In this document: positions 3,091-61,692 of the stretch, piece by piece
How positions within the stretch are numbered: position 1 is the first letter of the stretch
Layout of the letters: every line of letters starts with the position of its first letter
NCBI GenBank assembly: GCA_016744775.1
Contig: JADGDS010000001.1
Coordinates: 223,628-287,627 of the forward strand
Direction of reading: 5' to 3'
DNA: 64,000 nucleotides
From: Candidatus Marithrix sp.
GTDB lineage: Bacteria > Pseudomonadota > Gammaproteobacteria > Beggiatoales > Beggiatoaceae
The notes under the pieces: generated by a model
Database searches by the model: none
Seen by the model: only the letters and a program-made list of their open reading frames with translations
What the model was told of the DNA's origin: nothing
Position numbers and translations under genes: made by a program

Positions 3091-3359
3091 CATAATTATG
3101 ATTTAATTACAAATATTCTGTAGGTTGGGCTGACCAACGGAAGCCCAACAATTCCAAAGTAGTCTTCATGCTCAAACCCTTATCAATAAAGGGATTAATC
3201 GTTTTTCAAGGCAAAATAGTCTTCATGCGGTTTAACGCTTCCCAACCAGTCAGTAGTTCAAATTATAACATTATTAGCTAATAAAAATATTTTGTGCATG
3301 AAAATAGCATAAACATTTATGCTATAATTGATTAGTTACGCCAAATTAAAATAAATATT
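3091..3359. other. Repeat-bearing leader region upstream of metK
   Basis: This gap holds a single arm of the GTTGGGCT repeat (about 3120-3150, itself able to form a GTTGGGCT/AGCCCAAC hairpin), two copies of TAGTCTTCATGC about 55 bases apart, and the metK promoter. No structure matching a SAM or SAH riboswitch was recognised by eye. Confidence 0.5.
3320..3328 (+). promoter_or_regulatory. Extended -10 promoter of metK-ahcY
   Basis: TGCTATAAT fits the extended -10 consensus TGnTATAAT, which does not need a strong -35; none is seen at the right distance. The predicted start near 3335 leaves a 25-base leader, too short to hold a riboswitch. Confidence 0.55.
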
Positions 3360-6777: not shown

Positions 6778-6868
6778 ACTAGTAGGTTGGGCTGACGATA
6801 GGAAGCCCAACACAACACAATTATTCCACGATTCGTTGGGCTTCCTATCGTCAGCCCAACCTACTAGT
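6778..6868. repeat. GTTGGGCT fold-back repeat, full copy
   Basis: The ends 6778-6811 and 6835-6868 are perfect 34-bp inverted repeats enclosing 23 bases. Each arm also contains an internal GTTGGGCT/AGCCCAAC hairpin. Related copies lie at 3120-3150, 59737-59812, 61781-61823 and 62375-62405. It sits between the convergent rapZ and cas6-like genes and has no coding content. A MITE-like or REP-like dispersed element is the best reading. Confidence 0.8.
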
Positions 6869-6871
6869 TAA

Positions 6872-7552
6872 TCAATTACTCTGATCAGGATTTACAGCCT
6901 TAATATCTTTATGAGGAATAAACAAACCACAACCCATTTTTCTACCTTCACCTATACCTTGTTGTTGCAAACGAATTGAATCATTCGCTTCCATATCTGC
7001 AATCATTAAGCTACGAGTAAATAATTCTGTTTCTGCTAATTTCACAATATTAGTTTTGCCACATAATGCCTTACGACATTCAATATCCATATTTTTTAAC
7101 TCAGCAACCACAGATTCTATAAAAGCATCCTCATCTTGCTCAGGATTGGCAATTATATGTCGTGCAAATAATACTGGCATTTGTATTAATGGTTTTTGTT
7201 TAGCGGCACCAATTGTTAAAGAATAGCCACTAATATCTAATGTCATGCCAGTTAATACTTGTGCATCAGCAATGCGATGTTCAGGAACACGTAGCGTCAA
7301 TTTAGTACGACGCGATAAATATAAAATACTATCAGCTGGGCGATACCAACCATTACCTGATTCAGCTCCATGAATTAAATGTAAACCCACATCTGCCTCA
7401 TTGTTAAACCACGGTAATGCTTGAATAATTGCTTCAGACAAAGCATAAGCATGATCTAATGACAGACAAGTACAATTAATATCAAATACTAAATCTACAA
7501 TATTTGTAGATATAATTTTATCTACTTCAGAATTTTCTTCTTGCCACAACAT
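6872..7552 (-). CDS. Cas6/Cmx6-like RAMP protein (type I-MYXAN Cas6 family), no CRISPR array nearby
   Basis: I recognise this 226-residue protein as like the Cas6/Cmx6 family: a beta-strand start VDLVFDINC (19-27), LSLDHAYAL with His34 at the place of a possible catalytic histidine, GLHLIHGAESGNG (57-69), LRVPEHRI (88-94), and a C-terminal glycine-rich loop GIGEGRKMGCGLFIP (199-213), the hallmark of Cas6 RAMP folds. Cas6 enzymes cut CRISPR precursor RNA. No array, cas3 or cascade gene lies in the window, so the substrate is unknown and the true role may not be CRISPR. A 60-aa gene 13 bases upstream forms an operon with it. Confidence 0.75.
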   Translation of the reverse strand: MLWQEENSEVDKIISTNIVDLVFDINCTCLSLDHAYALSEAIIQALPWFNNEADVGLHLIHGAESGNGWYRPADSILYLSRRTKLTLRVPEHRIADAQVLTGMTLDISGYSLTIGAAKQKPLIQMPVLFARHIIANPEQDEDAFIESVVAELKNMDIECRKALCGKTNIVKLAETELFTRSLMIADMEANDSIRLQQQGIGEGRKMGCGLFIPHKDIKAVNPDQSN

Positions 7553-7565
7553 AATCTAATCACCA

Positions 7566-7748
7566 TTAATAAAAAGCAGCTTCTAAACGATCTTCCCAAT
7601 TTTCGGGTGTATCTGGATAACTTGGGCGTACATCCATACGAAAAAAACGCTCACCACTGGTTTCAGCCTTTTGTTTAATTACTTTGACTAAGTCTTCAAA
7701 ATTATTTAGTTCATGATGTTCCATCATAACTTCACTAAGATTTAACAT
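7566..7748 (-). CDS. Small acidic protein upstream of the Cas6-like gene
   Basis: This 60-residue frame begins at an ATG preceded by an AAGGAATT ribosome binding site and ends 13 bases before the cas6-like start, so it is likely the first gene of a two-gene operon. It is acidic with an N-terminal helix-forming stretch (LSEVMMEHHELNNFEDLVK) and the motif ERFFRMDVRPSYPD. I do not recognise the family. It has no Cys, signal peptide or membrane segment. A subunit or regulator of the Cas6-like protein is an inference from position alone. Confidence 0.6.
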   Translation of the reverse strand: MLNLSEVMMEHHELNNFEDLVKVIKQKAETSGERFFRMDVRPSYPDTPENWEDRLEAAFY

Positions 7749-60286: not shown

Positions 60287-60529
60287 CCTATTTATATATT
60301 ATAGTAATTTAAGCTGAATTGCTAAAATATATTTGTTTTTTTTAGATTATTCAACAATACATATGGCAAAATTATGAATGTATATAAACTTATAATCAGC
60401 TTATTAGTCTATTTATGATAGCTAATATTTGAGCACAGGTTTTATGTCAACGCTAACTATAGATGTTTCTCCTCAAGTTTACAAAAATTTTCATTAACTA
60501 ATTTTAATTTGCCAAAAACTTGTAGTTTC
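60287..60529. other. AT-rich gap with a gene-start relic
   Basis: The only coding trace is at 60444-60497 (+): an ATG followed by STLTIDVSPQVYKNFH and a stop, which looks like the beginning of a small antitoxin-like protein cut off after 17 residues. The rest shows no gene, hairpin or RNA. Confidence 0.35.
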
Positions 60530-60633
60530 ATTTCATGGTTTCCAGTTTTGTTGAGAATTATACATAATTACCTCATTATAAATATATTACAAAAAATGAA
60601 CAATTAGAAAAACTGAAATATAGCTACGGAGAT
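60530..60633. pseudogene. Relic of the gspK start joined to a DUF455 fragment (second unit)
   Basis: Bases 60546-60596 match the divergent gspK/DUF455 start region (57692-57744) with a few changes, including loss of the DUF455 ATG. The sequence then jumps to a copy of 58112-58148 (NEQLEKLEYSYG region of DUF455), so about 370 bases were deleted. The GGAG of the Tyr-Gly codons at its end lies 7 bases before the RNA ligase ATG and now serves as its ribosome binding site. Confidence 0.75.
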
Positions 60634-60639
60634 TGAATA

Positions 60640-61692
60640 ATGGCTTTTTTTGGAGTTACAAAAGAAACTATTGCATCCACTTTTCCTATTGAAAATGCAG
60701 ATGCCATTGAAGGTGCCACTTTGGAAGGATCTACCTTTGAATTTGTTATAAAAAAAGGACAATTCAAAAAAGGAGATATTGTATTATATTTTCCTATTGA
60801 TTCTCTTATACCAGAATGGGTACTAGAAAAACTAGGCTTAGTTGGTAGATTAAGCGGCAAAAATAAAAATAGAGTAAAAACTGTTAGGCTCCGAGAACAA
60901 ATTTCTCAAGGCATAGTTGCAAATCTTACATTATTAGAAAATATGCCTGCAAATACTGCTGATGAAAAAATTACCGAATTTCTCGGCGTTGAAAAATATG
61001 ATATACCACCCATTCCTTGTCAAAATGCTCAACTAATCCAACTACCTATTGGATTATCTGCTTATGATATTGAAGGCGCAGATAGATATGTTGAAGTAGC
61101 CGAAGTATTAATGCCACAACTGGTAGAAATTACCGAAAAACTTGAAGGGCAAAACTTTTCAGTGACATACGCAAGCTCGGAAGATAAAATATATGTAAAC
61201 CAACGCAATTTTTCCATTCAATCTACAGAAGGAGAACTACATGAATTTTGGAACGTTGCAGAAAAAAAAGGCATAATTAAATTTGTAGAAAGTTTGAAAC
61301 AAACCTATCCGGGCAAAAACATCACTGTTTATGGAGAATTCATAGGATCACGGGTTCAATCCAACATTTACAAATTAAAGGGTTTTGAAGTTAAACTGTT
61401 TGATATAAAAATCAACCATGAATGGCTAAGCCCAGACATTCGCCAAACTACCATCGAAAAATACTTTGGGAATCTGGAAAACCACGTACCAATTTTAGCC
61501 ACAAATATCATATTAAAAGAATGGCTGAATGGTAAAAGTATAGTTGAAGCCTCTAACGGCATATCCAAACTACATAAAACACCTAGAGAAGGAATAGTTA
61601 TAAAACCAATGACAGAAGTTAGACATAACAAAGTTGGTAGATTAGTTATCAAACAACGCGATCCAATTTACCTATCGAAGACTAATAATTAA
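60640..61692 (+). CDS. RNA ligase, DRB0094 (Rnl5-like) family
   Basis: The 350-residue enzyme belongs to the nucleotidyltransferase ligases related to Deinococcus DraRnl. An N-terminal OB-like module (FEFVIKKGQFKKGDIVLYFP, REQISQGIVANL) precedes the adenylation domain: motif I EKLEG with Lys167 as the AMP-linked residue, ITVYGEFIGSRV (motif III), GFEVKLFDIKIN (IIIa), REGIVIKP (IV) and GRLVIKQRDP (V). The family seals 3'-OH/5'-phosphate nicks in RNA or mixed duplexes. No repair or RtcB-type partners lie near. It is an intact gene inside decayed DNA, which suggests recent arrival or selection. Confidence 0.88.
   Translation: MAFFGVTKETIASTFPIENADAIEGATLEGSTFEFVIKKGQFKKGDIVLYFPIDSLIPEWVLEKLGLVGRLSGKNKNRVKTVRLREQISQGIVANLTLLENMPANTADEKITEFLGVEKYDIPPIPCQNAQLIQLPIGLSAYDIEGADRYVEVAEVLMPQLVEITEKLEGQNFSVTYASSEDKIYVNQRNFSIQSTEGELHEFWNVAEKKGIIKFVESLKQTYPGKNITVYGEFIGSRVQSNIYKLKGFEVKLFDIKINHEWLSPDIRQTTIEKYFGNLENHVPILATNIILKEWLNGKSIVEASNGISKLHKTPREGIVIKPMTEVRHNKVGRLVIKQRDPIYLSKTNN

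Follow-up and report, generated by a model that had tools for sequence, protein, structure and literature searches.

The window (the whole stretch of 64,000 nucleotides of Candidatus Marithrix sp. DNA analyzed here) contains a gene for a 226-aa Cas6-like protein and, just upstream of it, a gene for a 60-aa protein (Table 1). Both ORFs and the gap between them were found as the original prediction had described them, and because a 13-base gap is too short for a terminator plus a promoter, the two genes probably form one operon. The inverted repeat between the convergent rapZ and cas6 genes is a probable bidirectional terminator. Its GTTGGGC...GCCCAAC core recurs in the window near positions 3124, 59741, 59783, 61785, and 62376, making it a dispersed, terminator-like repeat.

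Table 1. Coordinates of the cas6-like gene, its partner gene, and associated features in the window.
Feature	Position	Strand	Description
cas6-like gene	6872..7552	-	226 aa; Cas6/Cmx6 family, dsr-type clade; matches to PF09559, TIGR02807, and 8fcj_B
60-aa partner gene	7566..7748	-	MLxLSE...MDVxPxxxDTPxNWEDRLEAAF family
Gap between 60-aa gene and cas6	7553..7565	-	13 bases; the 60-aa gene is upstream
D33-H34-A35 codons (DH motif)	7448..7456	-	H34 is the putative catalytic His; coordinates calculated from the ORF
Glycine-rich loop QGIGEGRKMGCGLFI, residues 198-212	6917..6961	-	Coordinates calculated from the ORF
Inverted repeat with 29-nt arms, TAGGTTGGGCTGACGATAGGAAGCCCAAC	6783..6863	.	Between convergent rapZ and cas6; read in the sequence

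A Cas6-family protein in a genome without Cas1, Cas7, or Cas3 above cut-off

The 226-aa protein had been assigned to the Cas6/Cmx6 family, and both family models agree, with scores far above their curated cut-offs. The Pfam model PF09559 (Cas6) matches residues 19-215 with an E-value of 2.6e-64 (217 bits, cut-off 26.7), and the NCBIfam model TIGR02807 (Cas6/Cmx6) matches with an E-value of 3.6e-42 (144.5 bits, cut-off 98.85). Two of the features on which the assignment had been made, LSLDHAYAL and GIGEGRKMGCGLF, are present in the protein. By sequence, its nearest solved relative is Cas6 from a type I-B CRISPR-associated transposon (8fcj_B, E 3e-14). The AF2 model of the protein, based on an alignment of four sequences, is of low confidence (pLDDT 51); Foldseek searches with this low-confidence model returned Cas6 structures as the top PDB matches (8fcu at 5e-10, 5yi6, and 3i4h), with low TM-scores, so that the model is a weak test of the RAMP (ferredoxin-like) fold.

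The window's genome is 3.09 Mb in size and 98.4% complete. Profile searches of it found neither Cas1 nor DevR/Cas7 and gave only sub-cut-off matches to the Cas3 core, and the 64-kb window contains no CRISPR-like array. Type I-MYXAN systems have cas3, cmx8/cas8, cas7, and cas5 (and cas1) next to cas6, and cas genes of this kind do adjoin cas6 in the CRISPR-linked relatives. The original prediction would have been refuted by a complete I-MYXAN locus elsewhere in the genome, and the searches for Cas1, DevR/Cas7, and Cas3 revealed none. A CRISPR system in the window's genome was rejected on the lack of these genes in the genome and of an array in the window.

In an even sample of the class, comprising 185 genomes, we observed a PF09559 gene in 61, representing about 55 families, with exactly one copy in each genome. 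Cas1 is present in 66 of the 185 genomes, and 26 of these share it with Cas6, compared to 21.8 expected (Fisher p=0.19). Since this overlap is near expectation, this Cas6 does not follow CRISPR, and the proposal that the protein works outside CRISPR is well supported. A protein that passes the curated I-MYXAN Cas6 model could be an ordinary crRNA-processing enzyme serving in trans an array elsewhere, or the leftover of a decayed I-MYXAN locus. We consider both very improbable given the missing cas genes, the lack of association with Cas1, and the maintenance of one intact copy in so many families within a conserved non-CRISPR operon. Automatic annotation as CRISPR-associated Cas6/Cmx6 means that such proteins may be misread as immune leftovers.

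Cas6 co-occurs with reverse-dsr genes

Neighbor clustering covered 44 cas6 copies. Since their neighbors included DsrE, DsrF, DsrH, DsrA/DsrB, and DsrC-family genes, we searched for dsrA in the same 185 genomes. It is present in 62, a count that includes the split or truncated dsrA genes of G000, G033, and G079. We found 58 genomes with both genes, 3 with Cas6 only, 4 with dsrA only, and 120 with neither (Fisher 3e-39). In each of the seven exceptions, the gene lies at or close to the end of a contig, where its partner would be expected. In two of the Cas6-only genomes (G127 and G093) the contig stops inside the tauD-like gene that usually parts cas6 from dsrA, and in the third (G067) it stops about 330 bases past that gene. 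Among the dsrA-only genomes, the contig of G123 starts inside a 237-aa gene that is beside dsrQ and the 60-aa gene and next to the expected place of cas6, and in G070, G079, and G110 dsrA lies within about 0.7 kb of the contig start.

These counts indicate that this Cas6, which we call dsr-type, is a near-obligate companion of the reverse-dsr (rDsr) pathway in gammaproteobacterial sulfur oxidizers, and it almost certainly belongs to the rDsr gene set. Outside the class, none of 47 dsrA-bearing genomes of the phylum carries this Cas6, so Dsr chemistry as such does not require it. We found no earlier description of a link between Cas6 and dsr in the open-access library that was searched.

Gene order at dsr loci

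In 43 of the 58 genomes, cas6 and dsrA are 0.7-4.2 kb apart and without exception divergent; in the other 15, which include the window's genome, the two are unlinked. The usual order is dsrHFEBA on one strand and, on the opposite strand, dsrQ (tauD-like), the 60-aa gene, a 237-aa gene found in a subset of loci only, cas6, a gene for a cysteine-less DsrC, and a 68-aa gene. In many loci adjacent stop and start codons overlap or almost touch, which suggests that the genes of the operon are translationally coupled. Three further genomes of the class, probably betaproteobacterial, all have cas6 in a directly divergent position to dsrA, at a distance of 0.4-0.6 kb. Two families of oxygenase-like proteins of about 224 and 199 aa, read from the sequences, recur 1.2-6 kb downstream of cas6 in L034, L052, L067, L070, and other loci, as do Sfum_1244/DUF6866 proteins.

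The name dsrQ was given earlier to the tauD-like gene divergent from dsrA (Lenk et al. 2012, according to PMC7596348), and the loci observed here share this arrangement with those of known sulfur oxidizers. In the parts of PMC7596348 that we could consult, the description of the dsrQ-dsr arrangement makes no mention of cas6, the 60-aa gene, or a cysteine-less DsrC downstream of dsrQ. The rDsr pathway is a major route of sulfur oxidation, and the module of the 60-aa protein, 237-aa protein, Cas6, cysteine-less DsrC, and 68-aa protein appears to be an unstudied accessory to it.

The DsrC-like protein encoded beside cas6 belongs to the TusE/DsrC family and lacks the C-terminal cysteines. Among the copies listed downstream of cas6 its C-terminus is KGGY, with one extra paralogue in L049 as the exception, and the dsr operon's own DsrC ends in KPTGCV or KPTGCI. 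A TusE/DsrC-family neighbor raises the alternative that the module acts on tRNA, with a Cas6-like RNA binder and a DsrC/TusE-like protein tying sulfur status to tRNA thiolation. DsrEFH and DsrC are homologous to the tRNA-thiolating TusBCD and TusE, according to PMC3397948, and dsrQ, a member of a dioxygenase family, is in the operon. However, the adjoining DsrC-like protein is without the sulfur-carrying cysteines, no MnmA-like gene was recognized among the named neighbors, and the association is with dsrA. Action on tRNA therefore appears improbable.

dsr genes of the window's genome

In the window's genome the usual operon is split, with the 60-aa gene and cas6 in the window and dsrQ beside dsrA, still divergent from it, in a dsr cluster on another contig (C1). 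A DsrC-like gene whose product ends in KRKGGY is on a third contig. The relocation of the pair away from dsrA makes this genome atypical. Candidatus Marithrix (L031) and Candidatus Parabeggiatoa (L032 and L033), which are close relatives, keep the pair together. The original prediction, made from the window, correctly placed the protein outside CRISPR but missed the rDsr link, which emerges from the co-occurrence with dsrA and the divergent position.

The genome's own dsrA, which lies outside the window, is interrupted by about 1 kb containing an HNH-type ORF (L097:8403-9420; G000:C1, about 60403-61420). The insertion has two partial matches to group I introns (RF00028, E ~1e-8, below the gathering score). 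An intein was considered as the cause of the broken DsrA frame, and a group I intron fits better; the insertion in this key gene of sulfur oxidation is thus probably an intron of that kind.

A dedicated 60-aa partner

The 60-aa gene was found in 53 of the 185 genomes, and 52 of these carry Cas6. Put the other way, 52 of the 61 Cas6 genomes have the gene, compared to 1 of the 124 others, the exception being G123. In 36 of 44 loci it directly precedes cas6 as a conserved upstream gene. The ORF is, to judge from this conservation, a real conserved gene, and its almost complete nesting within the Cas6 genomes bears out the suggestion that it encodes a dedicated small partner. Eight residues of the protein are invariant (M1, S5, L20, P42, P48, W51, E56, and F59), and AF2 predicts three helices (pLDDT 87). 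Searches with Pfam and NCBIfam profiles placed it in no known family above cut-off, and it has no match among solved structures.

We compared the distance matrices of the proteins encoded at these loci. Cas6 correlates with the TauD-like protein (r 0.71) and with the 60-aa protein (r 0.55), both above the permutation maximum; the correlation with DsrA is not significant (r 0.29, Mantel null maximum 0.49). The accessory genes therefore change together, and DsrA is much more conserved. The dsr cluster moves laterally, and together with the lack of a significant correlation to DsrA this could mean that cas6 is a hitchhiker, caught in a cluster whose genes spread together, and that it plays no part in sulfur metabolism. 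We give this explanation next to no credence, as Cas6 is kept in the 15 of 58 genomes where it is unlinked from dsrA, and the 60-aa gene stays with cas6 even in such unlinked positions (G032, G042, and G109).

Residues shared with and distinct from CRISPR-linked relatives

We compared dsr-type Cas6 to the Cmx6 proteins of cyanobacterial plasmids, six of which adjoin cas3. The window's protein is 23-28% identical to the CRISPR-linked cyanobacterial members, and in the tree the dsr-type sequences form a clade apart from all others, with a support of 0.993 and a long branch of 0.80. In the alignment, D33, H34, the glycines, and F211 of the LSLDHAYAL and loop motifs are kept in relatives, including the CRISPR-linked ones. 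H34, the putative catalytic residue, is kept in 56 of 57 dsr-type and in 6 of 6 CRISPR-linked sequences. Among the dsr-type sequences, the loop glycines G201 and G209 are present in 57 of 57, and G199 and G207 in 56 of 57. Common to both groups are D33-H34, R88, R131, Q196, and the glycine-rich loop. The dsr-type proteins also have conserved residues of their own, W3 (57/57), W69, R82 (57/57), E141, K161, H214, and K215; of these, W3, W69, R82, E141, and H214-K215 are strongly conserved and missing in the CRISPR relatives.

The dsr-type protein thus resembles type I-MYXAN Cas6/Cmx6 in family membership by curated cut-offs, in the DH motif, R88, and Q196, and in a loop of the form GxGxxRxxGCGxF. 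It differs in genomic setting, standing with dsr genes, with no array in the window and no Cas1, DevR, or above-cut-off Cas3 in the genome, and in forming a separate clade with conserved residues of its own. The Cas6 of type I-B CRISPR-associated transposons (8fcj and 8fcu), the closest solved structure by sequence and the top Foldseek match, works in a Cascade transposition complex and has an Asn where the dsr-type protein has His34.

This pattern of residues fits a protein that kept an RNA-handling core and gained new contacts. Because the putative catalytic His34 is so widely kept, RNA binding or cutting has probably been retained, and we consider it likely that dsr-type Cas6 still binds RNA. 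The dsr-type-specific residues could also be read as those of a scaffold or sensor, in which the Cas6 fold has been reused to bind a protein of the sulfur pathway, such as the cysteine-less DsrC or the 60-aa protein, and the RNA role has been lost. The proteins encoded nearby are those of the sulfur pathway, and the searches turned up no conserved RNA target, which would both suit a scaffold, yet the retention of His34, R88, and the glycine-rich loop is what selection for RNA recognition would be expected to leave. We regard the loss of the RNA role as unlikely.

Candidate RNA targets near dsr

In the window's genome, the gap between dsrA and dsrB can form a hairpin with a stem of at least 14 bp and a z-score of -6.4 (e.g., L097:10070-10150). 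Hairpins with z<-2 in this gap occur in 57% of Cas6-linked loci and 20% of Cas6-less dsr loci, a comparison that phylogeny confounds. Of 37 Cas6-linked loci, 16 lack the hairpin, and 3 of 15 Cas6-less loci have it. The region 3′ of dsrC is also strongly folded. The dsrA-dsrB and post-dsrC hairpins have no common sequence and are commoner in Cas6-linked loci. As a target of Cas6, the dsrA-dsrB hairpin is suggestive without being decisive. RNA structure in the gaps between cas6 and the DsrC-like gene, dsrB and dsrE, and dsrH and dsrC is not above chance, and Rfam searches gave nothing relevant near the genes.

A single nucleic-acid element close to the operon is strongly conserved, and it lies between dsrA and dsrQ. 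In about 30 loci (e.g., L044, L054, L055, and L108) we observed, on the dsrA strand, a -10 box resembling CCTAGACTT, with two sites, ACCCTA-N4-TGGGGT and TATCCC-N4-GGGATA, at fixed spacing to it; this two-site element was not seen in the window's genome. The two sites were rejected as an RNA target of Cas6, since their spacing is fixed to the -10-like box and their distances to the dsrA ATG and to dsrQ vary. Changes in the TATCCC-N4-GGGATA palindrome also show no strand preference; the neighboring ACCCTA-N4-TGGGGT site shows an excess of G-U on one strand. The element looks like a dsrA promoter with protein-binding sites.

Proposed recruitment of a CRISPR protein to sulfur oxidation

The explanation that we moderately favor is that a Cas6-family RNA-binding protein was recruited from a CRISPR system into the rDsr pathway of gamma- and betaproteobacteria, where it would be an RNA-binding regulator or processor of sulfur-oxidation transcripts. 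Pointing to recruitment are the co-occurrence with dsrA, the divergent position, the conserved operon, the independence from CRISPR, the long-branch clade, and the retention of the histidine and loop, all of which are features of sequence and genome context. CRISPR proteins have been adopted for host regulation before, as in the dev locus of Myxococcus xanthus, where a Cas-family protein has a host role. In that case a cas operon acts in development, and here a lone Cas6 stands in a metabolic gene set. If true, an RNA-processing CRISPR protein would here be at work in energy metabolism, which is rare, and the rDsr link corrects a misleading annotation in many genomes.

Both the RNA target and the mechanism that follow are ones that we infer. 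Cas6 and the 60-aa protein, together with the 237-aa protein where present, may form a small ribonucleoprotein that recognizes hairpin RNA, with the strong dsrA-dsrB and post-dsrC hairpins as candidates. Binding or cutting of these hairpins would set the output of the dsr operon, and the cysteine-less DsrC may serve alongside the ribonucleoprotein as a regulator rather than a sulfur carrier. That dsr-type Cas6 acts on dsr mRNA specifically is possible but somewhat doubtful. The full version, in which Cas6 is a dedicated RNA endonuclease or RNA-binding regulator that, aided by the 60-aa protein, recognizes both hairpins and so determines the stoichiometry of DsrAB to DsrEFH/DsrC across sulfur-oxidizing Gamma- and Betaproteobacteria, is tentative and rather unlikely to hold as a whole. 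In A. vinosum the mRNA levels of dsrEFH and dsrC are higher than that of dsrA (Grimm et al. 2010, cited in PMC3397948), a ratio that a processing step could produce.

Plasmid pGMOR1 of Gloeobacter morelensis (L088:3977-7240) also carries a Cas6/Cmx6 gene, and no further cas gene is annotated in the 8.6 kb read there. The gene stands in a row with others that encode a cupin protein and a member of the PAPS-reductase family.
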